In this document: positions 4,261-53,588 of the stretch, piece by piece
Layout: each line of letters starts with the position of its first letter
Position numbering within the stretch: position 1 is the first letter of the stretch
Origin: Tipula vernalis
Taxonomy: Eukaryota > Arthropoda > Insecta > Diptera > Tipulidae
Length of the DNA: 64,000 nucleotides
Reading direction: 5' to 3'
Assembly (NCBI GenBank): GCA_958295665.1
Contig: OY282560.1
Span: 261,998,641 to 262,062,640, forward strand
Notes under the pieces: generated by a model
What the model saw: only the letters and a program-made list of their open reading frames with translations
Told to the model about the DNA's origin: nothing
The model's database searches: none
Translations under genes and position numbers: made by a program

Positions 4261-5224
4261 ATGACATTTCTCAAAATGGAAGAAAAACTTATTGAGTTTG
4301 TGCGAAAACAAAAATTTTTATACGACAAAAAAGACGCTAAATATAAAAATGTATATTTACGCGATAAATTGTTTAATGAACTGGCTGTAGAACTAAAAAT
4401 TCCACGTAAGTAGTTTTAATATTTTTGACAAACAAATATATTTAATACCAAATTCGATTTGCCAAAAAGTGGCAAAAAACAATAATACCATGTTATTTTT
4501 TGATTTAATCAACTTTTATTGCTGTTTTCTGGTAAATCTAATTTGGCATAAGTAACCAAATCCTTATAAATACTTATTATGTATAAATACAATTTTTATT
4601 TTTAGTTGAAAAGGTGAAACAACGCTGGAAAACATTGCGGGACAAATTTCAACGAGAAATTAAAAAGGAAAATCTAAGTTTGGGAAGTAAAGCAACCAGC
4701 CCCAAAAAAGAGTGGAAGTGGCTGAAACCGTTAATGTTTTTAAAGGTTGTGGATAGTGCAAATGAAAGGTAAAATCTAAACAATTTTATTCCAAAATCTT
4801 TTATTTATCTTTTTATCCTTCATTGTATATTTGTAGAACCGCGGGAAAATATACAAAGGTGGACGATGAAGAAGAAGTTTTTATGGAAGACGTCGAATTT
4901 TTAAATTTCGGGGACAATTCTAATAACGATACCCAAGCTAGCGAATGTTCGTCAGTAGGAACGTCCACGTCAAGAACGCCAAATTCAAATAAAATGAATA
5001 AAGTGGATTCTGCGTTAGAATCGGCAACTAAAGAAATGGTTGAAATTATTTCTTTAGCCAAAACCACGTTTGCAGTTCCACAGCCGCCGGAATCCCCAGC
5101 CCAAATTTTTTTTAAAGGAATCGCTGCCCAAGTAGACCAGGCAAATATGTCTCCAATGAGATTTGCACAGCTGCAAATGGACGTCCTTAGTGTATTGACA
5201 CAAAATTTATATCATGATAAATAA
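4261..5224 (+). CDS. Harbinger-associated MADF/Myb-like DNA-binding protein, three exons
   Basis: Exons 4261-4405, 4606-4768 and 4837-5224 join in frame. Donors are GTAAGT and GTAAAA, acceptors TTTTTAG and TTTGTAG, with phases 1 and 2. The N-terminal 100 or so residues form a MADF-type helix-turn-helix: a FVRKQKFLYDKKDAKYKN segment, then VKQRWKTLRDKFQRE and EWKWLKPLMFL, each with the spaced tryptophans of the fold. The C-terminal half is acidic and serine-rich, then ends in a helix-forming stretch (SPMRFAQLQMDVLSVLTQ) like BESS-type interaction tails. In the Harbinger family such a protein binds the element ends and brings in the nuclease, which is encoded convergently 40 bp downstream here. 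Start at 4261 or 4276; both ATGs are in frame. Confidence 0.78.
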
Positions 5225-5267
5225 ATTAATTAATTAAACTGTTTTTGTTTTAAAAAAAATGTTTTAT

Positions 5268-6614
5268 TTACATATTTTCTGAATTACGTACATTATTAAG
5301 ATAATCCTTTAAATGATCTCTTATTGAAAATGCATCCCTTGTTGAATTAAATCGCGTCGCAAATTTATATTGTGGCAAAGGGTTGACTTCTTGTCGCCAA
5401 CTGCCTTCTATTAGATCTCCTTCATTATTAAAATGGTCGACAAAGTTATTAGAAATATAGTTCGAGGAATCGTGTAGTTTGATAAAATTATGGAGCACTA
5501 CTGTTGCTCGAACAATTTTTTCGGCGTTCTCTGGAAACACGTTTAGCGAATTTGTAAGTACTCGACATTTTTCAGTCAAAATGCCAAACGTATTTTCTAT
5601 TTTAACCCTAGCTGAGGATAATTTTTTGTTATAGACTTCTTTGTCCTTTGGAAGAAGCCGCCCAGGATAAGGTCGCATCAAATTTTTTCGTAATGGGAAA
5701 GCTGCATCCCCGATGAAATAACACGGGAATTCCTCATTTGTATTTGGCAATATCATTGCTTTTGGAATGTTGATAGTGCCCTTTAAAATTTGTTCGCCAA
5801 ATGCACTTTTTTCCAGAATTCCACCATCACTTTGGCTGCCATATGCTCCGATATCAACAGCCGAAAACAAATAATTGCTGTCGCATACAGCCATTAGCAC
5901 GATACTGTTGTATTTTTTGTAATTGTAATACAACGAGCCACCGTGTGGTGGGCATTTGATAGCAATATGTTTGCCGTCGATTGCTCCAACTACATTTGGC
6001 ATTTTGGTGTTTTTATAAAAATCTTTAGCTGTTTTCTGCCACTCCTGCTCTGTAGGAGCCGACAAGTAAATGTCGCGCAATTGGCCCCAAATTACCTCAC
6101 AGACTTCTAATATAATTTCCCGGATAGTTGACACACCTATTCTGAAAGACCACGCCAACACCTGCCAGGCTGCACCATGTGCCAAATATCTGAAATTAAA
6201 TACACATATTTATAATTGACTTCACAATGTTTTACATAACTAAATGTTTATTTTAAAAATATATACTTACACTAATGTTATAACCAATCGGCATTCTGGA
6301 TCAATCGAATTTCGAACAACATTTTCTTTTTTCAGGTATGGGCTTAACAAATTATTTAAAATTTCAAACTGTGGTATGCCCATACGGGTCGCTTTTCTAA
6401 ATTGCTCCTCATCTTTTTCTTTAACCACAAGAAAAATTTGAGAAAAAAAGCCGTGCAGCTCCCTTTCATTCTCCGTAAAAATTGGCCGAGTCCACATTCG
6501 CCTATTTTTCGTTTTATGCTTCTCGCACAACTTTACAACTTTTAAGAATGAACAATAGCACAAATAAATCATTAGCATTTTATTAAAATAATCAAATTTA
6601 ATTAATGAATTCAT
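5268..6614 (-). CDS. Harbinger DDE transposase (HARBI1-like nuclease), two exons
   Basis: Exon 1 runs 6614-6271 and exon 2 6189-5268 on the minus strand. The intron (6270-6190) has a GTAAGT donor and a TTTCAG acceptor. Joining gives an uninterrupted protein of about 421 residues, normal for the family, and restores the conserved run TLVYLAHGAAWQVLAWSF across the junction. Catalytic signatures are complete: D186 in VGAIDGKHIA, D276 in YFIGDAAFPL and E313 in ARVKIENTFGIL. The N-terminal part matches the usual region before the nuclease (MGIPQFEILNNLLSPYL). Reading the second exon alone would start at a TTG, so the spliced model is preferred. Intact coding and convergent placement with the MADF gene suggest a recently active copy. 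Confidence 0.85.
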
Positions 6615-6996
6615 TTAAAAAAAAAAAAATCGCTCATAAAACACATCCAAACACTTTGACAAATCAAAATAGAAATAAAAAAAAAATCTGCTTGTCAAAA
6701 AAAGACGCTCATGTATTTCACCTGAAATTCTGCCGGCAGCGCTGCTAGCAGAAATTCTGCTCATCTGTTTTCAGCATAATATTAACGAAATGTTGCGTAG
6801 TCATTGGAAAATTATTTGTAGCCAATGAGTGTATTTACACTTGGTCTCAGGAATCCGGATTCTTTCTTCGTATTTCCCTCCTTTACCTACAAAACCGGTT
6901 TTATTGCCGCCATTTTTAAACCAAAATTTTTTGTATTTCTCGGGTTTCATCGCACTAACACAAACATAAAAAATATAAAAATTCTCGAGGACATAT

Positions 6997-7161
6997 GTGC
7001 TGGAAAAAAAAAATGAGCAAACATATTTTATTACAAATTTGAGTCTTTTTTGTATTTAAAATGGAACAATAAGCCAATTGCTTTCAAAAGTTTTGTAATT
7101 TTAGCAAAAAAAGACTCCAATTTGTAATAAAATATGTTTGCCAAATTTTTTTTCCCAGCAC
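6997..7161. mobile_element. 165-bp palindromic MITE
   Basis: The element starts GTGCTGG and ends CCAGCAC. Arms of 50-60 bp are near-perfect complements; each includes the tract ACATATTTTATTACAAATT and the motif AGTCTTTTTT. A half copy of the same family occurs at 10676-10790. The flanks show no certain target duplication. Confidence 0.7.
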
Positions 7162-7267
7162 TTTATATTTTTTTTTCGTATTCTTGATTAGTTTGAGTTT
7201 GTCTTTTAGAGTGTCAGTAATAAAAAAAAATAAATAATAAATAAAAACATTTTAAAAATAAAAATTA

Positions 7268-9902: not shown

Positions 9903-10672
9903 TTTCGATATGTTGATGACATTTTAATGTTATTCAATGGAACACACCGTCAACTTAAAAGTTTGCACAGTTACATCAACAGCATTCATTCAAACTTAAA
10001 ATTCACAATAGAAGAAGAGTACAACAATCACATCAATTTTCTAGACATTAATATAAAAAACGCAAATAACCAAAACATTTTTAAAATACATAGAAAGCCG
10101 ACATAGACAGATCAAACAATTCACCACACATCCAGCCATCCACCACAACATAAAATGTCTGCATACTTCCATATGATAACTCGTGCCAATCGTATACCGA
10201 TGAGAAATAGTGATTATATTGAAGAGATAAATACAATAAAACACATCGCTAGAAAGAATGGATTCAATACCAACTTGATAGAAAACATGAACAGGAAATT
10301 CAAACACAAAGAAGAATTAAGATCACTCACCACGTTACAACCACAACAACAAAAAACCGTGAAACACATAACGATTGAGTTTAACAAAACAGTAGCAAAA
10401 ATAATAAACAAGGTTTTCGAAGAATACCAATACAACATCGCGTATAGAACGAGTAACAAAATCGATAGTCGCACAAAAACCATAAAACCAAATGAAATAG
10501 AAACAGGGGTGTACAAACTAAAATGCAACGATTGTCAAGCATTGTACATAGGCCAAACGGGGAGAAATTTTAAAATCAGGTTCAAAGAACATGTAAAAGA
10601 AATTGGAAAACAAAATATAAAATCAAATTACGCCGCAAATTTAACCCGCGATCAACACACATATACCAGCTA
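9903..10672 (+). pseudogene. Penelope-like element: RT palm to GIY-YIG endonuclease
   Basis: One frame from 9903 starts in the RT palm at FRYVDDILMLFNGT with the catalytic YVDD. It continues through EEYNNHINFLDINI, has a single stop (TAG near 10102), and then reads on from 10155 through the linker to the GIY-YIG nuclease: ETGVYKLKCNDCQALYIGQT followed by GRNFKIRFKEHV. These are hallmarks of Penelope-like retroelements, which use RT plus this nuclease to insert. The 5' RT fingers are absent and the 3' end is cut off at 10676 by another repeat. One stop in about 250 codons suggests moderate age. Confidence 0.82.
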
Positions 10673-10675
10673 CAG

Positions 10676-10790
10676 TGCTGGTAAAAAAAAATTGGGCAAA
10701 CAAATTTATTGCAAATTGGAGTCTTTTTTTGCTAAAATTACAAAACTTTTGAAAGCAATTGGTTTATTGTTTGATTTTAAATACATGTAT
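10676..10790. repeat. Half copy of the GTGCTGG MITE family
   Basis: The block starts GTGCTGG and carries the ATTGGAGTCTTTTTTT and GCTAAAATTACAAAACTTTT motifs in the same order as the reverse complement of 7161-7056. Only one arm is present. It truncates the Penelope GIY-YIG frame, so it arrived after that fragment or marks a deletion junction. Confidence 0.6.
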
Positions 10791-10965
10791 GACGTAATTT
10801 TTTGAAAAAAAAAATTGACCTGCAGTTTAGGGGCAAAACACCGAAAAATGCCAAAATATTCAAAATACGTTTGATTGGAGTTAAAGTAATGTAATAAATT
10901 AAACACTTATTTTTTTTTTTTTTGTTTTTGTTTTTTATTGATTTATAGAAGTTCAATCTTTAATA

Positions 10966-12479: not shown

Positions 12480-12775
12480 TGTTCTTATACATGTACAGTG
12501 GATCGCACTCGTATTCGTATTTAATCATTTTTAAGTACAATCTTACACGCCAATTCTCATAGTCGTATCACGTCATTTTTCATGACTATAGTCACATCAC
12601 ATCAATTTTTCGATTCTCTTACTCGTTTGTTACGACTAGAGTCACTTTATACGATGGATGTCACTTGAGTTTTGCAAGTGACAAGCGAATACCACAAAAT
12701 GGAAAGATGCAATTATTTTATTTTATATACTTTAAAATATTGTTTTTTGAATAATTTTGTTCACTGTATTTAAGA
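12480..12775. repeat. Left arm of an inverted-repeat element (CCAATTCTCATAGTCG family)
   Basis: The arm contains CCAATTCTCATAGTCGTATC, then TGACTATAGTCACATCACAT, and later GTCACTTGAGTTTTGCAAG. The same motifs occur in inverted order at 16745-16860, and again at 17175-17202 (-) and 17321-17530 (+). The jockey LINE sits between this arm and 16745, so the host element was split by it. Superfamily is unknown. Confidence 0.6.
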
Positions 12776-16735: not shown

Positions 16736-16744
16736 AATATTTTA

Positions 16745-16883
16745 AGTTACAGTCGTATCACTTGGTTCGTCTTCAAGAATAGCAATTTTCAAGTGACGTG
16801 ATACGACTATAGTCACATCACATGAAATGACACGACTATGGGAATCGGGGTGCGAGTGACTTGAGGCGTAACACACGACTTGG
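16745..16883. repeat. Right arm of the CCAATTCTCATAGTCG inverted-repeat element
   Basis: The block contains GACGTGATACGACTATAGTC, CACATCACATGAAATGACAC and GACTATGGGAATCGGGGTG, the reverse complement of the arm at 12545-12620 with mismatches. It closes the outermost element of the nest that encloses the LINE and hAT. Confidence 0.55.
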
Positions 16884-16894
16884 ACAATAGGAAT

Positions 16895-17128
16895 TTAACA
16901 TATTTGTTGTTTACTCGTGGACTAATATCACCAACAAAAAGATTTTATATTATAAAACACAATATTTCGGTTTTGTCACTTTCCTTAACGTGATATTTAT
17001 TTTATTTGTAAATGAAATTACGATCGTTTCGGATGCTACTCCTTTATCAAATTTCTAACAAACATTATGTTTTAAAGAAAGTGACAAAACCGAAATATTG
17101 TGTTTTATTATATAAAATCTTTTTAAAA
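16895..17128. mobile_element. 234-bp hammerhead-bearing insertion with 11-bp target duplication
   Basis: The segment is bordered on both sides by ACAATAGGAAT (16884-16894 and 17129-17139). Two 50-bp arms, 16937-16986 and 17074-17124, are near-perfect inverted repeats. Between them, on the minus strand, lies a hammerhead-like motif (17055-17014). It codes for nothing. Size, hammerhead, terminal repeats and duplication together suggest a non-autonomous Penelope-derived or retrozyme-like element. Confidence 0.6.
17014..17055 (-). ncRNA. Second hammerhead-like ribozyme motif
   Basis: Minus-strand order: GAAAT, core TTGATAA plus A, stem II GGAG-TAGC-ATCC (three pairs and one mismatch), GAAAC, loop GATC, GTA cleavage triplet, ATTTC. 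GAAAT and ATTTC form a perfect 5-bp stem I, and AC/GT a 2-bp stem III. It has the same core variant and the same extra A as the motif at 9616-9663, although stem and loop sequences differ, which argues for shared structure rather than chance. Confidence 0.5.
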
Positions 17129-17139
17129 ACAATAGGAAT

Positions 17140-17530
17140 ATTGAGGCGACGTGACTTTAGTCAACTAAAGTAACGTGACACGACTTCGGTAATTGGGGTG
17201 GAAAACGCAATTATTTTATTTTATATATTTTAAAACGTTGTTTTTTGATAATTTTGTTCACTGTTTTAAATATGTTGATTTTTAAAATAATAATATTGTT
17301 GTTTTAAAACGATTTTATCACCCCAATTCCCATGGTCGTATCACGTCATTTTTCATGACTATAGCCACGTCACATTAATTTTCCTATTATCTTTGTCGTT
17401 TGTTACGCCTAAAGTCACTTTATACGACAGATGTCACTTGAATTTTGTAAGTGACAGGCGACTACAGCAAAATGGAAGGGCGAAATTTTAGTCGAAATAT
17501 TTTTTTTAAATGTTTTTAATTGCGTAATTT
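17140..17530. repeat. Further CACCCCAATTCCCATGGTCG repeat ends
   Basis: 17175-17202 ends in AATTGGGGTG (minus orientation), and 17321 starts CACCCCAATTCCCATGGTCG (plus orientation), followed by motifs seen at 12600-12690 such as GTCACTTGAATTTTGTAAG. Between them lies a near copy of the block at 12700-12770. These look like adjacent members of the same inverted-repeat family. Confidence 0.5.
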
Positions 17531-18686
17531 TATTCACTTGCTTTATGGGGCGTAGGCTCTTTGGCCTTATGTCTTTACACTTCTAATGCCGGCTGTATCA
17601 TATTACATGTATCAAGTAAATTATTTATTTAATAACCTTCTGTCTGTATCCTTTCTACAATCGAACTGAAACTTCATATCTAAGCTTTTTTTTTCATAAA
17701 TTAGGAGGTCCAGTGTATTTTAGTGAAACCCGAATTCTTATATAAAATAAAAGAATTACCGAAAAACTGTTAATAACAATAACATTTTTTTTTTTAAATT
17801 TTAAACTTGTAAGAAATTTCCATAATAAGTTTTTCTAAATTCCCTGTTCGTAAAAGAAAGCCATTGGCCACACCCCAATTTATTTTCATGTTTACCCAAA
17901 CAACCGATAAAGAAATATGAGTACTACGGACCGAATATAAATAAGTTAAAATCGGACTTGAACTGAATGGAGGAAGTATCGTTGCTATTGGGAATTCCTC
18001 AGAGAAAGACATATTCAACATCACAGACATATTGATCTAAATTGAGCAAAATGACACAGTAGAAACATTTCGGATCAACTGTTGCTTAATCTGTACTTGT
18101 AGAACATAGAATGGTCATCTTCAACATCATAAGATATTTAGGATGTTTTCGACAAGGTAGACAAAGACAAAGGTACAGCGTCACTTACAGAGTTCAACAA
18201 ACGTTTTGTGAGGATTATCAAAACTTATTGTACGATATTAATAAATAAAATGTGAAGGTTAAAGCAATAATCGTGATAAGCTTTTTGAGATTAAAAACTG
18301 AAGCTCCAACAATGGAATCTCCCTTGGTTAGATATGGTAGAAGCAGTGTCTTTGTGTAGCCGCCAATAATCTTGGCCCATATGATATGACTTTAATCTCA
18401 GTTAACGTTGATTTTAACAATATGATGGATTCCTCTCAAATTTTCCTATGAATTATTTTTATTGATAAAGATTAAATTACTTTGAACTTAAAATTTCTTA
18501 AATTGTTTGTTGCGATACAGGGTTAAAACACAAAACAAATTAATTAAAGTAAATGTAATCAACAAACACATACAACGTTATTTGTTATTATCAAGCTGAT
18601 TACAATTTTTGCATAAATATCATTTTTATTCATTTAGTCAAAGTGACAAACCACTGGCTGAATACATCGTAGATAGTGCTAACATA
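17531..18686. other. Region upstream of the Toll-like gene, no gene recognised
   Basis: No protein family, RNA gene or terminal repeat was recognised. A 78-codon minus-strand frame (18030-17794) has no recognisable domain and is not called. The last few hundred bases should contain the promoter of the gene starting at 18687, but no element can be named with confidence. An open frame extends upstream of the start ATG only from a TTG. Confidence 0.4.
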
Positions 18687-21109
18687 ATGTTATTGAAATA
18701 CGCGCTTGTAAAATTTGTAGTTATTGCCAGTTTTTTTCTAGATGTAAATTCTTTGTGTGATAATGTAAAATCCGTGTGTGACTGTCAACAAACTGCGAGT
18801 AATAATCGCACTAACTTACAGTGTCCTAAAATGAACGTGAGTGGTCGATATACCCATTACATAGAAATTATTGATCAACATCACATTAATATCAATTGTG
18901 TAACATTCAATCCACTGAATAAAATACCAAAATTGTATTTTGGACGAGCTAATATTACACGCGTTGATTTCTTAAATTGTTTCAATAATGATACACGACA
19001 TACAAATTATCAATTTGATTTCAAACAATTTGTGAGCAAAACATTAGAGGCTTATGACACAGAGTGGAATTCAATTGACGTTTGGTTTCATGATTCGGGT
19101 AAAGTTAATGAGACATTATTTTTTAGTCGATGGCCGCTGATAAAGTCGAATGTGATAATAACAAATATATATATGCAAACATCAGATTCACTACCACGTT
19201 TACGTGGTGCTGAATATTTATACCTGATAAACACTAATTTAGTTGATTTTAATAAGTTTATTGGTAATGACGATACTATGCAAATTCTTGAGATCCTCAA
19301 TACTAAAACTATTACAAATTTAAATAAGCATAATTTGAGCAAATTTAAAAATTTAGTTCATTTAACTATCGAGAATAGCGCAATCGAAGATTATTTTGGC
19401 CAGATATTTCAGCAAGGCAGCATTTTTAAAGAAAATCCAGGTATCGAACAAATTTCATTGATATCGACTTTTAAAGATTACCCGGATAAAATCACGTTAA
19501 ATGCTACAATTTTCTATTACTTAAACAGGCTAATTTCACTAAAATTAATAGATTTAAAATTAGAAGAGTTACCACTAAAGATTTTTGATGATCTGGAGAA
19601 ACTGAGTCATCTTGTTTTGCGACATAATCAATTAAGTAGATTGAGCAAAAATATTTTTGTAAATTGCCAAAAATTAGTGAAGATTGATCTAGCATTCAAT
19701 AATTTTATTCGGATCGAGTAAGTAAATAATTGAAACATTTAAATAGTTTTTATAATTTGGTTTTTCTTATTTATTTAAGCACCACCATGTTTTCTGCACT
19801 TGTTACGCTCGCTATTTTAAATTTAAGTCACAACAACTTGAGATCATTTGTGTACGATGCCAGCAACCAAACAAGCTTCAAAGGAATTTATTTGGATCAT
19901 AACCATATACAAATGGACTCTTTTACTTGTCCGATAATTAACATTCAACATTCTGCAAGTGTTATTGATTACTCACACAATCAGATTTCAAATAGTGAAC
20001 CGATTTTAGATTGCATCGTAAAAAATCCCGAGGTACAAGATTTGAAACTGAAGCATAATCAAATTCGTTCACTGCGATTTTTAAAAATGCTATCAAATCA
20101 AACGCTAAATAAAAGTTATATCACACTCCACTTGGACAATAATTTGATCGATTTTATTGATTTATTAGAGTATCAGGATACAGGAGCTAATGAAGATGAG
20201 CGAACAAATATCGTTTTACATCTAGATTCAAATCCAATTTTCTGTGATAATTGTCAATATAGCAACACATTATTTGTAAATGATACAGGCGTCATTTTGG
20301 TAAATCACGATACCGTGTTTCAAATACCTCAACCGGAGTTTTGTATAAAATCGATTTTTTGCTCAATGAATTATTTTGTAAACAACTATTCTTGTCCATA
20401 TCCGTGTTATTGTACGTTCAACAAGCATTTCAATAGTCTTGCGATTAACTGTGAAAATGCAACCCTAAAAGAAATTCCATTCCTTAATGATGAATTATTG
20501 TACAGGATTAATGTTAAAGAAATATATTTAAATTTACAAAACAACAACATATCAAACATATCGTTTGATAATACAAAAAATGGTAAACAAACGTCATTCG
20601 ATGTAATAAGAAGAATAACAAAAATTAATTTGGAGCACAATTCAATTGATTTGCTAAAATTTCATGACAATCATTTTCCAATTGCCCTGAAAACGTTACT
20701 ACTAGCATGGAATAAAATTTCAAACATTGATGAAACGACCCTAGTGTTACTGAATACGCGTGAATCACTTTTAGCGTTAAGTCTTGGGAATAATACGGTC
20801 ACCAGGAATCATCAATTGTACGATCGTTACATCAATCGAATTAAATTTCTAATTATTGATCAAGAGGCAATCGACGAGGAGTTCAATCATCTAAAATTAG
20901 AGGCTCACATACGGGATGGTGAAAGTAGTATAGTATCAATTGTGGTGGTGATAGTGGTGTTCATTTTGATGATGATTGGACTAAGCTATATTAGTTACGT
21001 GTTCCAAAGGAGTCATACAAAAGTGTTGGTACAAAAAAACGAAATTGAACAATCACAAACAGATCTGGTATCGGAACAATTAGACGAGACGTGTAACGAA
21101 ATACTCTGA
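18687..21109 (+). CDS. Toll-like leucine-rich-repeat membrane protein lacking a TIR domain, two exons
   Basis: Exon 1 is 18687-19717 and exon 2 19780-21109. The 62-bp intron has a GTAAGT donor and a TTTAAG acceptor, and joining restores LAFNNFIRIDTTMFSALV, an LRR. The predicted protein has 786 residues. Residues 1-22 are a signal peptide (MLLKYALVKFVVIASFFLDV), followed by a Cys-rich N-flank with CDNVKSVCDC. Imperfect LRRs run to about 495; then FCDNC (498-502), FCIKSIFC, and CPYPCYC (549-555) with INCENATLKEIP, which begins a second N-flank and LRR block. The TM helix is about 728-751, and the tail is 35 residues without a TIR. This order of flanks and LRR blocks is that of Toll-1 type receptors; the last C-flank has lost its CxC. 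A soluble-signalling or decoy role is only inference. Many NxS/T sites occur. Confidence 0.8.
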
Positions 21110-22052: not shown

Positions 22053-22350
22053 CATATAAGTAAAACTACTAAATATTAAGTAAGAAACGTGTGCCCTGGT
22101 TTATTTATAAACATTACATTACGGCTAATGTACAAAATAGGAGAATGTACACATTTACCGGCAAATGTACACATTCATTCCCCAAAGTGAGTGGTAAATG
22201 TGCGTATAAATTGAACAAAATACTCATATTTCGTACATTTTCCGGACAATGTGGACATTTCCGATAGCTCATTGGTGAATGTAATTTTCCTCTAGATATG
22301 AAAATTTGTACACTAAATTTATGCTAGTGTACGTTTTGTAATTAAGAAAC

Positions 22351-22763
22351 AATTAAGGTGGAACTTCGCTGTTTCTTGACGGATTATGATGAAATTTGAT
22401 ATGGGTGACGGAAATGGGATTCTAAAATGATTTTTGGATAAAGTTCTGGACTATGGCCAATTAAGATGGAACTTTGCTGTTTCTTGACCGATTATGATGA
22501 AATTTGACATGAGCAGTGGGAATGGGATTCCAAAATGATTTTTGGATAAAGTTCTGAAATGTGGCCAATTAAGGTGGAACTTCGCTATTTCTTGACCGAT
22601 TATGATGAAATTTGACTTGAGCGGTGGAAATGGGATTCTAAAATGATTTTTGGGTAAACTTCTGAAATGTGGCCAATTAAGGTGGAACTTGGCTATTTCT
22701 TGACCGATTATGATGAAATTTGACAAGGGTGATGGAAATGGGATTCTAAAATGATTTGTATGT
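22351..22763. repeat. 108-bp tandem satellite, about 3.8 copies
   Basis: Copies begin AATTAAGGTGGAACTT at 22351, 22459, 22567 and 22675, exactly 108 bp apart, with few differences. Each carries CGATTATGATGAAATTTGA, GGAAATGGGATTCTAAAATG and a run GATAAAGTTCTGG. Because 108 is a multiple of three, the minus strand stays open over several copies and mimics a 36-residue protein repeat. The same family occurs at 52685-53330 and as a degraded copy at 26430-26545. Confidence 0.88.
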
Positions 22764-22925
22764 AGTGATAGGAAATCATAAGGGCTCGTCACGACCATTT
22801 TCGCATTTAAGAAATAGAGCAAGCAATTTTTGGAGATAAATAAACAAACAAAATACAAAAAATTCTATAAATCATATTTTATTTAAGAAAAAAAAGCAAT
22901 GTACTACATTCTATTATGGCGAGTT

Positions 22926-28849: not shown

Positions 28850-30840
28850 ATTCCCCAGGGTAGCGATTTTGGTCGCAATTTGAGGATTGAGTTGAGAATT
28901 ACCGGAAGGCAATAGTATTGGTAAATTGTATTGGTGTCCAAAGAATAGAGAAAAGCAGAGAATAAACATTTGAAAAATAAAAAAAACAATTCAGTGTTAT
29001 CTTATGCGTACGAAAGAAATGTTGTACATATTTTTATTTCCAGTAATTTTCTGTAAAATTTAAAACTAATAAAATGGTAAATTGAATTATGATTTAAAGA
29101 TAAATAAAAATTAGCTAAAAATGGAAATTAAGTCAAAAAAATATTTATAAACTATAATTTTATTAATAATTTTAAATGATGAAAAGACATATGACGTACA
29201 TCCTGCTTGCCCATGCCACAATCACTAATTTACTTGTATTTTTCACATTATCCTATCCCTCTTATTCGATGTTAAACAAAAAACTAAAAAATTGATGGGC
29301 GTTTTTTTTTTGTTTTTTGCTTAACATGATGCAAATAAGAGAGATAAAATGATACGAAAAAGAGGGATATAAAATATAATGTGGAAAATATAAGACGTAA
29401 ATTAGTTATTTTGGCTTAGTGTTAATTCAAACGCAGGAGAGGACGGATGTACGTCGTGTGTCTTTTCATCATTTAAAATTATTAATAAAATTATAGTTTA
29501 TAAATATTTTTCTGACTTATTTTCCATTTTTAGCTAATTTTTGTTTATCTTTAAATCATAATTCAATTTACCATTTTATTAGTTTTAAATTTTACAGAAA
29601 ATTACTGGAAATAAAAATATGTACAACATTCCTTTCGTACGCATGATGTTCAGGATCAGAAGCCGAAAAGAAAATTACTTATTAATGTATTTTGTATATA
29701 AACACAATTAATTATAATGTTACTTATCCTTTTCTTGAATTATCTAGTAATGAATTCCATGAACTATGAAGATATATTTTCCTAAATTTCCATATATTTT
29801 CCTAAAATAATCAAAATTGTAAATTAGTTATAAGTTAGTATAAATCAATGTAAATTTAAATTACCAAAAATTTTTGAATGACAGCTGATGAGTGATGACA
29901 TTTATTTTGGCACTGATGATAACATAGCAATTTGTCTTATCGACTTCATATTTTAACATCTATGTTGTCATTGCGCCATCTATATTCAAATACTATCAGA
30001 TAATAATTTGTAGCTCAAATATATTTTTATTATTCGCCGTGGTTTTTAATTTTTTATATGTTGGCAAGATCAAGCTAATAAAATTTATATCTCGTTCACT
30101 TCCATTTTGATCGCAGAGCAAGTTATACAACTATCAATAAAATCAAGTTTTTTTAATAAATAAAATTTATAACGAAATCAATTAAAACAACATAGAAGTT
30201 GGTTTTCCTTTTATTTTTATTTTTTTCCAATTTTATTATTGGCATCGATACACGTCCGTACACATGAGATAACACTGAATTGTTTTTTTTTATTTTTCAA
30301 ATGTTTATTCTCACATAACTCAAACAAAAAAAAAAAAAAAAAAAGTTAAAAATATTATGAATATGGCCGACGAAGAATGTATAGATTAAAAACCATTTAT
30401 TTATGCTGCTTTTTGGTTTTTATATTGAAGACCACGAGCAATTTTTTTGATTGCGAATATTGTTTTGGATTTTTGTTAACGAAGTAAAATGAATGTCTCG
30501 TTTACAACAACAATAGATAGAAAAACATGAATTCCTCATGTTAAAAGATAGGGAAAAATAACTCAAGGCGAGCGGAAGCAACAAAAAGTTGAACCGATTT
30601 CACCCGCTTAGCTTATTTTTGATACTTATCATCATGAGGAAACACACTAATACAATAAAAATATTTGACGGCACACAATAGCAAAATGTATATTATACGC
30701 CGTGTACATATACAAAATTCTCAATCCTCATCCTCATTTTGCGACCAAAATCAATACCCAGGTGATAGTTTTTGGTAGGATTTTACCAAACTTTTGCTGC
30801 TATCACTGCCATCTATGTAATGTCAAACCATTCTTAAATA
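28850..30840. mobile_element. Large foldback element with an internal insertion
   Basis: The arm at 28940-29255 is inverted at 29360-29645: TTATGCGTACGAAAGAAATG pairs with CATTCCTTTCGTACGCAT, and the block ATCATTTAAAATTATTAATA is in both. The right arm resumes at about 30257 (ATGAGATAACACTGAATTG, the complement of CAATTCAGTGTTATC at 28990), so roughly 610 bp (29645-30256) interrupt it. Further out, GATTTTGGTCGCAA near 28866 pairs with TTGCGACCAAAATC near 30740. The right end carries AATATACAAGCCAT at 30818, also found at the ends of the element at 60910-61481. Confidence 0.65.
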
Positions 30841-39200: not shown

Positions 39201-40233
<1,033 letters not shown>

Positions 40234-50102: not shown

Positions 50103-51531
50103 CTATTTATCTGCATTCGCCGAATTGTTTTTATCACCTAACAAATTTTCATTCATCTCCATATTGCCTGTTCGGTTCGAAAATCGGAATTTGTCAAAAA
50201 GGCGCCATTTCCTAACGTAATTGTAATACAAATAAATAAATGCGATGATGATTACGGCAATTGTTGTCACAATGAGTAGTACTTTCAAGTGCAGTACATT
50301 CTCGATAAAATAATTCGTTCCACGCCTATTGTCGTAGTACACAGTTGTTTGTTTCATTACCGGGTAAAATGTTTCGTCCGATGGTTTCGATTCCGTAGGT
50401 GTTGTAAGCACTATCGATTTTAGTACATAATGACTTTGGTAATAAGCACAACTATCGAGTAGGTCACGCAGATTAAATTCGTAATGAACAGATGCAAATG
50501 AGTTACACAGAGCTCGGTTTGGGTTTGAGATCGTCACATTGAGCTTATGACCTACCAAATTCAACAAATTTATCGTATTTTCATTAATTTTAACCAATGT
50601 TGGATTATTGCTCAAGTCCAAATTGTTTAATTGTACCGGGAATCTTTGTTTTAAATCAATTTCCTCTAGCGAATTATTTGCCAAATTAATTTTCGTGATT
50701 TTCGAAATAATATTCATATTTTGTCGATAGTTGAAATATAGTTTTTTAATGGAATTATTTTGAAAGTTTAACTCGACCGCATTAAAATCAATTATGCCGT
50801 AATATTTGATAATGGGAATTTCGGTCAGATTTTTACTCTCACAATTTATAACCAATTTCTTTGTAAACATATTATGCATGTACTGACACATTCGAAATTC
50901 AATGATGTCCGCACCCCCATAATACTCCATGGCATCACAGTATACTGATTTTCGACAATAATTTGGAAAATTCAATTTAACTTCAATACCGAAATCGTAG
51001 AAAAAGCTCGAAAAATACGTGTGGGTCCTTTGATTAAGGCAATTCTCACAATAAATCGGGCTATCGTTAAAATCTATGATCAAATTGAAAAAGTATGGAT
51101 TATGATAGCTGAGGTAATTCTCTTCCTCCATTGTATCGTGCAGGATATCCGACTTGGTTATATTATTACCATCTAATATCAACGCCATATTATGTTTGTG
51201 ACGTAGTAAATTACTTTTGATTATCGTACTAAATCGTATTTCAGTTATTTTATTATTAGTTAAATTTAGTTTAACGATACCAGGATTGTTGATTAGACAT
51301 GAAACTGATTCAAGATTTTCAATTAGATTCGTTTGTAAGTCCACCGATATACTGTTGGACAGGATACTTTTAATTGGACATCCCGAAATGTTAGCGAACG
51401 TCAATGAGTTATTTTTAATGTTAATCAAACGCAGCTGCGGCTGAGTTAATGCGTTGTACTGAAATTGAGTTAATCGATTCCTTTCGAGATGAAGCTGACC
51501 GAGATGGGTGAGTGCCTCGAACATCGCGGTG
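50103..51531 (-). CDS. Paralogous Toll-like LRR membrane protein, second exon only
   Basis: An open 476-codon exon ends at a stop at 50103. Its 5' edge is an acceptor (TTATTTCAG at 51540-51532) followed by CACCGCGATGTTCGAGGC, aligned with CACCACCATGTTTTCTGC at the start of exon 2 of the gene at 18687-21109, with the same splice phase. Landmarks correspond: LRRs, YCENC for FCDNC, CRKSVYC for CIKSIFC, VINCESKNLTEIP for INCENATLKEIP, and a second LRR block. The TM is at about residues 414-436 counted from the ATG at 51524, with a short tail without TIR. The CPYPCYC flank is reduced to one Cys. No exon 1 is seen on the minus strand up to 64000, so it is lost, outside, or too diverged. An open frame of this length argues for selection. 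Confidence 0.7.
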
Positions 51532-51540
51532 CTGAAATAA

Positions 51541-52684
51541 AAATTAAATCTCGTTCATTTTAAAATTCATTATCATTTAAATTAAAATAATCTGTTAGTT
51601 AGTTTAAATCAAACTATAAAAAAAAGTTACGTTCTTCCCCAAATATCAGACCATTCTGATTATATTATTGGCGACTACTGAAAAACTCAATATGACAGGA
51701 AATTTCCATTACATTGATTTGTACATTTTCCAAATGCACACCCAGGTGTGTCGTGTTGACAAAAAGGTTAACCAAAGAACTAGAAATAGTCGCACGATAG
51801 AAATAGAATTCATAGAACTGAATAAAACTTTTAGGAACTCACAGGAAAATTTTGCATTTTTAAATGAAGTTGACTAACAATATTTGCTGTACATTAATTT
51901 TCTAAACCCGTAACTTAAAATTATAAAGATTTATGTTTAACCCTTAAAATGTGTTTAATTTTTTGTAACATAAACCGTGGTTAGATATCGAATGGATCAA
52001 GGATTTTTCCTGGAAAATGATTAATAAAAAACCAAAATTAAAATGATCAAGTATTTTGATTTCATTATAAACTTTATATTCATCGATTAAAGAATATTGC
52101 ATTTCAAAGTAGATTTGGAATATTTTTTGCACACATGTTTTCCGCAAATGTTACATTGTCATTTTAAAATTTATCGAATCGATACACCACACGTTTTAAG
52201 GGTTAAATGGTTTTTATTTTAATTTATTGAATTATTTCTATGTTGTGTGTTTTTTCGTTAATTAGTTGAATGAATTTAGCTAAAAAATGTTGATCTACAT
52301 ATTTTAAAATTTTTTTAAATAATAATTAATTTTGTTCGTTTGTTGTGTTCAATTTGACCCCACATGCTAAATGAATTCACACAAATATAAATACAATAAA
52401 AAAAATTAATTTTTTTGTATTGAAGTGAAACTTCTTTAGCGACATACTCGTATCTGTTTGCAATTTTTCAAATGAAAAGTGCAACGAAAATCGCATTTTC
52501 CAATCGTAGCATTTAGTACATTTACTGCTTGCTTAAACCATATTATTATAGAAAACCAGTAAAACACTATAGTGTATTATAAAATGCACACATACTGCGT
52601 CTTGAGTTTGTATCGTAATTGGCCTACTGTTTGAAAATTTTGGTTACACGAAAGGGTAAATAAGAGACAAGCCTTAAGTGCGAG
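51541..52684. other. Upstream of the LRR exon: no first exon recognised
   Basis: If the gene has an intron here it contains no LRR-coding frame on the minus strand. The short + frame 51668-51877 and minus frame 52147-51944 show no family features. Confidence 0.45.
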
Positions 52685-53330
52685 AAATGAATGCGCAACG
52701 TATGAGCTAAACTTTATTTCTATGTGTCTTAACCGATTTTGATAAAATTCAGCATGCACGATAGAAATGGAATTATAAAATGGTTTTTAGATAAAGTTCT
52801 GGAATATGGCCAACTAGGAAGGAACTTGGTCATTTCTTATCCGATTTTGATGAAATTCTACAAGCACGACGGAAATGGGATTCTAAAATGATTTGTTGGT
52901 AAAGTTCTGGATTATGGTAAATCAGGAAGGAATTTAGCCATTTCTTATCCGATTTTGTAAATTGGATTCTAAACTGATTTGCAGATGTGGTTTTGGAATA
53001 TGGTCAATTACAAAGGAACTGGCGCATTTCTTATCAGATTTTTATAAAATTCAGCATGCACGATAGAAATAGAATTCCGGAAAGATTTTTAGATAAAGTT
53101 CTGGAATATAGTAAATTAGAAAGGAACTTGGATATTTCTTATTCGATTTTGATGAAATTCAGCATGCACGATGGAAATGGAATTCTAAAATGATTTTTAG
53201 ATAAAGTTTTGTAATATGGCCAATTAGGAAGGAACTTCATGATTTCTCATCCGATTTTGGTGAAATTTGACGTGCACGATGGAAACGGATTTCTAAAATG
53301 ATTTTGGCCATTTCTTATCCGATTTTGATT
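52685..53330. repeat. 108-bp satellite array, diverged, about six units
   Basis: Units with CATTTCTTATCCGATTTTGA, GAAATTCAGCATGCACGA, GGAAATGGAATTCTAAAATG and AGATAAAGTTCTGGAATATG recur about every 108 bp, with one unit shortened near 52960. It is the same family as 22351-22763, but units differ more from one another. It lies 5' of the orphan LRR exon. Confidence 0.82.
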
Positions 53331-53588
53331 AAATAAGAAAAAATACTGTGTCTTGTATTTGTATCGTAATTCGCCTACATTTTGATACTATCGTGCAAGT
53401 ATTTTTCAAAGTAATTGTTTATGTACTGAAAATGTAATGAACGGTTAGTAAAATTTATATTGTCATCATTCATTCATTGTTGGTTAAATAATATATTATA
53501 ATCTCGATGTTAATATTTCGACACGTGTATGTTTATGTGATAAGATTTTATATTATTTAAGAGTTTTGCGTTTAGATATTTTTAAATA

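Follow-up and report, generated by a model that had tools for sequence, protein, structure and literature searches.

What is the 234-nt segment that interrupts an older repeat in this part of the Tipula vernalis genome, and by what route could it have arrived there? The segment lies in a window of 64,000 nt, by which we mean the whole stretch of DNA that was analyzed, and it was originally predicted from its letters to be a noncoding insertion with an 11-bp target duplication, inverted arms, and a hammerhead motif. The 234 nt are enclosed by two exact copies of ACAATAGGAAT, which occurs at these two flanking places and nowhere else in the 64-kb window on either strand. Two paralogous empty sites within the window, one near 17380 on the minus strand, where the second arm of the host repeat lies, and one in the copy at 12529–12757, each contain a single target motif and lack the insert when aligned by eye. 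Given the exact duplication and the single-motif empty sites, we conclude that 16895–17128 was inserted here and that its target site duplication (TSD) measures 11 bp, and no frame of at least 120 aa was found inside it; the predicted insertion, its duplication, and its lack of coding content are all upheld. The sense strand of the inserted element is the minus strand, with the 3′ end of the element at 16895. Features are listed in table 1, and below we use a query numbering in which query n equals window position 16894 + n. The insertion sits within an older inverted repeat (16740–17500 and 12529–12757) with GTGATACGAC-like motifs. The window has other strong inverted repeats (39267–40205 and 29004–29644, arms up to 200 nt at 97%), a 108-bp tandem repeat in two related arrays 30 kb apart (22196–22819 and 52657–53366), and two sets of frames resembling leucine-rich repeat (LRR) receptors (18600–21109 and 50103–51554), with Pfam LRR_8 in the first piece only. 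A search with an LRR-like frame gave no match, and among the best 120 of 1824 matches to a Harbinger-like frame the named ones are mostly from Diptera, which makes an insect host likely.

Table 1. Features of the insertion and its flanks (window coordinates).
Feature	Position	Strand	Basis
TSD, left copy (ACAATAGGAAT)	16884..16894	.	Exact match to 17129–17139; single in two empty sites
Whole short Penelope-like insertion	16895..17128	-	Copies share end 16895; longer copies carry or adjoin Penelope-like frames
41-nt Penelope-like "tail" (query 1–41), one side only	16895..16935	-	Outer end of inverted arm at query 37–52 in 26/26 armed copies
Arm 1 (query 42–94)	16936..16988	-	53 nt, 96% complementary to arm 2
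Hammerhead with outer helix I	17003..17064	-	Constrained fold; helix 17064–17058/17009–17003, 7 bp, across a 2 × 4 internal loop
Hammerhead stem I, perfect 5 bp	17055–17051/17018–17014	-	Descriptor scan, fold
Hammerhead core UUGAUAA; extra A	17050–17044; 17043	-	Descriptor scan, fold
Hammerhead stem II; GAAA	17042–17040/17033–17031; 17030–17027	-	Descriptor scan, fold
Hammerhead helix III C(GAUC)G; U16.1; A17	17026–17021; 17020; 17019	-	Descriptor scan, fold
Predicted cleavage site, between 17019 and 17018 (query 125)	17018..17019	-	Position after H17 in the predicted fold
Putative 5′ end of template RNA (query 172)	17066..17066	-	14/18 second-arm ends at query 170–172; untemplated C in 13/18; window copy has A
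Junction of two cDNAs	17067..17071	.	Corresponds to variable linker in 17 other short copies
Arm 2, inverted query 94–42; read as second cDNA, ended early at query 94	17072..17124	+	Arm comparison
TSD, right copy	17129..17139	.	Exact match to left copy; empty sites

The inverted arms, predicted at about 50 bp, measure 53 nt and are 96% complementary. Folded as RNA, the insert scores better than 200 of 200 shuffles from either strand, and no direct repeat was found within it. Matches of the insert to microRNA families fall far below the cut-offs and reflect the long hairpin. Long inverted arms together with an 11-bp TSD bring to mind a foldback or Mutator-like miniature inverted-repeat element moved by a DNA transposase, in which the hammerhead would be a product of chance. 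We regard this origin as extremely improbable, given that the arms are asymmetric and not terminal (the left arm is 41 nt and the right arm 4 nt away from the nearest end of the insert), that TSD length varies, that interiors vary and reach 2.8 kb, that relatives carry or adjoin frames of Penelope-like elements (PLEs), and that other PLE families have the hammerhead motif too, with covarying stems, as described below.

When the insert is scanned with a descriptor, a type I hammerhead-like fold appears at 17055–17014, confined to the minus strand, and the perfect 5-bp stem I of the original prediction is part of it. The successive parts are GAAAU, UUGAUAA, A, GGA(GUAGCA)UCC, GAAA, C(GAUC)G, UA, and AUUUC. 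Set against the consensus CUGANGA ... GAAA ... UH, the insert has all three helices and the other core letters, and it departs at C3/G8, replaced by U3/A8 with the pair kept, and in an extra A after A9. Each departure is on record separately for natural hammerheads with variant cores: U3–A8 covariation is described for several (PMC3088659) and an unpaired A after A9 for the plus strand of chrysanthemum chlorotic mottle viroid (PMC3705267). The insert is unlike those variant cores in that both departures occur together, and do so in PLE hammerheads with a palindromic helix III. The descriptor scan detected no hammerhead on the plus strand, and joining two inserts into a dimer created no new one across them. 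In computed stability, the hammerhead fold falls 8.7 kcal/mol short of the minimum-energy fold predicted for the minus strand.

If core variants documented in the literature are permitted, the descriptor matches once in 10 Mb of simulated window-like sequence, not at all in 5 Mb of simulated insert-like sequence, and nowhere else in the window. A looser score is attained by 5 of 4000 dinucleotide shuffles, by 11 of 4000 random imperfect palindromes, and, when the middle part is shuffled, by none of 4000; a scan at the loosest setting (up to two core mismatches, stem I of 4) yields two further matches elsewhere in the window. All descriptors used in these chance tests were written after the candidate was known, and the chance figures alone therefore do not settle the identity of the motif. 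The Rfam hammerhead models return nothing at gathering score in the window and nothing at E ≤ 10 on the insert, and RF00163 has no match at E ≤ 1 among the 73 of 138538 genome candidates that were scored.

The relatives of the insert place it in a family. When the best 40 of 1546 candidates are scored, the genome (1.27 Gb in 340 contigs) contains at least 113 match pieces to the insert, and we examined 40 copies, namely the window copy and 39 fetched places that are the best matches to it. The further copies that the original prediction implied are thus present, with the hammerhead core and with duplications, rather than absent or devoid of both. None was found in viral contigs and no match in plasmids; the single exact 20-mer in prokaryote contigs, from an alphaproteobacterial bin, has no further similarity around it and was taken as chance. 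The copies have a common end, at exactly query 1 in 32 of 40 and at query 2–6 in the other eight, the copies having been partly chosen for that end. An inverted arm lies within the fetched stretch in 26 of the 40, with its outer end at query 37–52 in every case; the two arms are separated by 0–17 nt in the 18 copies that we call short, and by 173 nt to 2.8 kb in the eight others. TSDs of at least 6 nt flank 19 of the 26 armed copies (three of these have 6 nt; 16 copies have 8–13 nt and 15 have 9–13 nt), and our script found no TSD of this length in the remaining seven.

Longer relatives connect this family to PLEs. Locus L027 has a 623-aa frame (5025–6893) matching the reverse transcriptase (RT) model RVT_1 of Pfam (E = 1.5e-11), which adjoins a copy of the 3′ region of the insert, and two longer copies with the same 3′ region, L011 and L029, have GIY-YIG-type frames, although Pfam calls no GIY-YIG in either. 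Places inside L025, L027, L088, L096, and L100 match the PLE frame at 10107–10805 of the window with 47–49% identity. This window frame belongs to a second, different PLE (PF01541, E = 8.3e-05, just over the cut-off), and its end falls in an inverted pair (7026–7165 and 10671–10810, 84%). A 52-nt match between L027 and L102, the latter upstream of another PLE frame, starts 12 nt before query 1 and extends 40 nt past it, and query 1 can thus lie inside the element. Five PLE features are found in all (an RT frame, a GIY-YIG domain, a one-sided tail with an inverted pseudo-LTR [pLTR], a TSD, and a hammerhead with palindromic helix III), three of them in relatives and not in the 234 nt alone; the RT frame is absent from the insert. 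Judged by its sequence, the insert is a noncoding, extremely short PLE copy that carries the PLE's own hammerhead motif. The minimal Penelope-derived element of the original prediction is confirmed in that its 3′ region, tail, duplication, and hammerhead are common to copies with, or beside, PLE RT and GIY-YIG-type frames. The accompanying statement that this class is scarcely described in insects went too far, since Drosophila virilis is the species in which Penelope was first investigated (PMC3846280), and reports of small repeats with type I hammerheads include insects (PMC7229834). PLE copies are very many in this genome (at least 150 matches with 150 of 7706 candidates scored), and several have open frames of 846–848 aa (e.g., C2:180258696, C1:253712845, and C2:194348912), which suggests that PLEs may have been active recently.

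Within the insert family, the hammerhead motif is found on the sense strand in 19 of the 20 first-fetched loci, and the exception, L020, has a substitution in stem II. A scan of L030–L041 with a minimum of 4 bp for stem I gives no hammerhead match; three of these loci do have the motif once 3 bp suffice for stem I. Beyond the family, we considered 569–579-nt stretches downstream of 40 PLE frame matches, hand-picked for spread from 150 listed. An expression based on sequence letters, in which pairing is not required, matches 30 of the 40 in sense orientation and none in antisense, and the helix III stretch is palindromic in all 30. In elements of this kind, dimeric hammerheads are reported to require a palindromic loop in helix III (PMC6466107). 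Among 16 matches with distinct stems, 51 of 64 possible pairs form in stem I and 43 of 48 in stem II, and none of 20000 re-dealings of the stem partners attains the observed pairing of either stem, a control that is lenient because the sequences are related. A pairing-based finder matches 17 of 40 sense stretches, 0 of 40 antisense stretches, and 1 of 800 shuffles; permitted zero or one extra base, it selects one in each of its 17 sense matches, always A or U, and an expression that permits any extra base or none finds 24 A and 6 T among 30. In PLE hammerheads, the bases at core positions 3 and 8 are C–G, U–A, U–G, or C–A. By these comparisons of nucleotide sequence, the hammerhead is conserved across PLE families and its stems covary. 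The core variants of the PLE hammerheads of this genome (U3 with A8 or G8, and the extra A or U) are missed by the Rfam models that we used.

The original prediction also described the insert as retrozyme-like. A metazoan non-LTR retrozyme would arise from tandem transcripts that are cut by the hammerhead and circularized before reverse transcription, and the insert resembles such elements, as they are characterized in PMC7229834, in its size, low G+C content, TSD of more than 4 bp, lack of an ORF, and type I hammerhead with a weak helix III that is short and palindromic. It differs in that second arms are inverted, head to head and not head to tail, in all 26 armed copies; two adjacent same-strand hammerhead motifs occur in none of 20 loci; and the cDNA ends upstream of the ribozyme motif, at the predicted cleavage site in none of 18 short copies, with the same ends occurring in coding PLE copies. 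A retrozyme origin is on these grounds very improbable, and this part of the original prediction is not retained.

How, then, might a PLE give rise to so short an insertion? In a PLE from Anolis, both target strands are reported to be cut and extended, with reverse transcription starting at two internal sites and the optional "tail" being the stretch between them (Frangieh et al. 2024, PMC11167929). In a rotifer Penelope, the inverted pLTR is described as 37 bp shorter, with a 31-bp tail and a 9-bp TSD (PMC3846280). The fit with both structures leads us to read query 1–41 as a tail. As described in these sources, Penelope/Poseidon-type PLEs with GIY-YIG (Anolis PAc, PMC11167929; Adineta Pen, PMC3846280) have in common with the insert and its family a pLTR with a hammerhead, a one-sided tail of 30–40 nt, an inverted pLTR that is about one tail length shorter, a TSD near 10 bp, and RT and GIY-YIG-type frames, which are here in longer copies. 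Unlike those elements, the window copy is limited to about 172 nt of the element, without a frame, and its hammerhead core has U3–A8 and the extra A.

We posit, with considerable confidence, that the insert is a non-autonomous short PLE copy that originated from an RNA start 2 nt before the hammerhead, two-strand priming, and head-to-head joining of cDNAs. The element RNA would start in the pLTR, 2 nt upstream of the type I hammerhead (17066, minus strand, query 172), and a PLE protein, acting in trans, would nick the two strands of the target at points about 11 bp from each other. Reverse transcription would use two internal start sites on the RNA about 41 nt apart (16895 and 16936), with one cDNA per target strand, and would begin at the sites near the 5′ end of the mRNA and not at those after the ORF, so that the cDNA would soon meet the RNA 5′ end and extend for only about 172 nt. 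Two cDNAs of about 172 and 131 nt would be joined head to head, which would produce the one-sided tail, the inverted arms, and a duplication of mostly 9–13 bp. The 53-nt arms of the window copy are probably due to early termination of its second cDNA, at query 94.

The inner ends of the second arms are independent of the query selection; first-arm ends are selected by the query and, the copies having been chosen by best match to it, are biased. In 14 of the 18 short copies, the second arm ends at query 170–172, and in the remaining four it ends at query 70, 94 (the window copy), 97, and 99; none of the 18 ends lies within 4 nt of the predicted cleavage site. Three of these four cluster at query 94–99 (window 16988–16993; the window copy, L010, and L022), perhaps owing to a pause or to microhomology around AACGTT. 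Linkers differ among most short copies (L013 and L086 have the same one), and most joins therefore look independent. Next to the query-172 end stands a C in 13 of the 18, an A in two (the window copy and L010, where the script read another place), a T in one, and no base in two. Longer copies have A, not C, at the place of this untemplated C. The facing arm starts with GAATG in 10 of 10 scoreable short copies (eight were not scored).

These same ends bear on a variant in which the PLE origin is kept and the arms are explained by self-priming, the 3′ end of a cDNA folding back and copying itself, as opposed to two separately primed cDNAs. The arms mirror each other at query 170–172 in the 14 copies, the C at one end faces a G, and a mirrored G opposite the untemplated C would also follow from self-priming, which has been inferred for rotifer Penelopes from palindromes at inverted junctions (PMC3846280). 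A copy-back product should, however, reach the end of the cDNA, and in all 26 armed copies the second arm stops at query 37–52, which is where the second RT start published for the Anolis element (PMC11167929) would be; moreover, the four exceptional second arms begin far inside. We therefore consider self-priming unlikely, although it retains an appreciable share of probability, and favor two separately primed cDNAs.

The start of the RNA that was copied can apparently be read from the short sister copies. Query 172 is 2 nt upstream of outer helix I. The untemplated C is compatible with copying of an RNA cap, and causes other than a cap are possible. That most cDNA ends of the 18 short copies are located 2 nt before the hammerhead, usually followed by an untemplated C, and none at the predicted cleavage site, suggests that the template RNA was capped and uncut. 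If template RNAs are not cut by the hammerhead, its conservation would reflect service in another step, for example, the processing of tandem transcripts. We are cautious in extending this argument, and tentatively hypothesize, at somewhat below even chances, that short PLE copies preserve in the genome the 5′ ends of template RNAs that were capped, started 2 nt before the hammerhead, and remained uncut, that the hammerhead serves another step, and that the short copies are by-products of RT starts near the mRNA 5′ end.

Penelope was already known in insects; the points particular to the present case are the short form, the apparent record of RNA ends, and the hammerhead core variant. We found no description of 172-nt head-to-head PLE insertions in listings from a collection of open-access papers. 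A 2020 review (PMC7761336) describes the role of the hammerhead in PLEs as a mystery. Given many short insertions with ends that apparently mark the RNA 5′ end, this question becomes approachable from genome data, which could address whether the templates of PLE reverse transcription are cut or uncut, whether they are capped, and whether an insertion is built from one cDNA or two.
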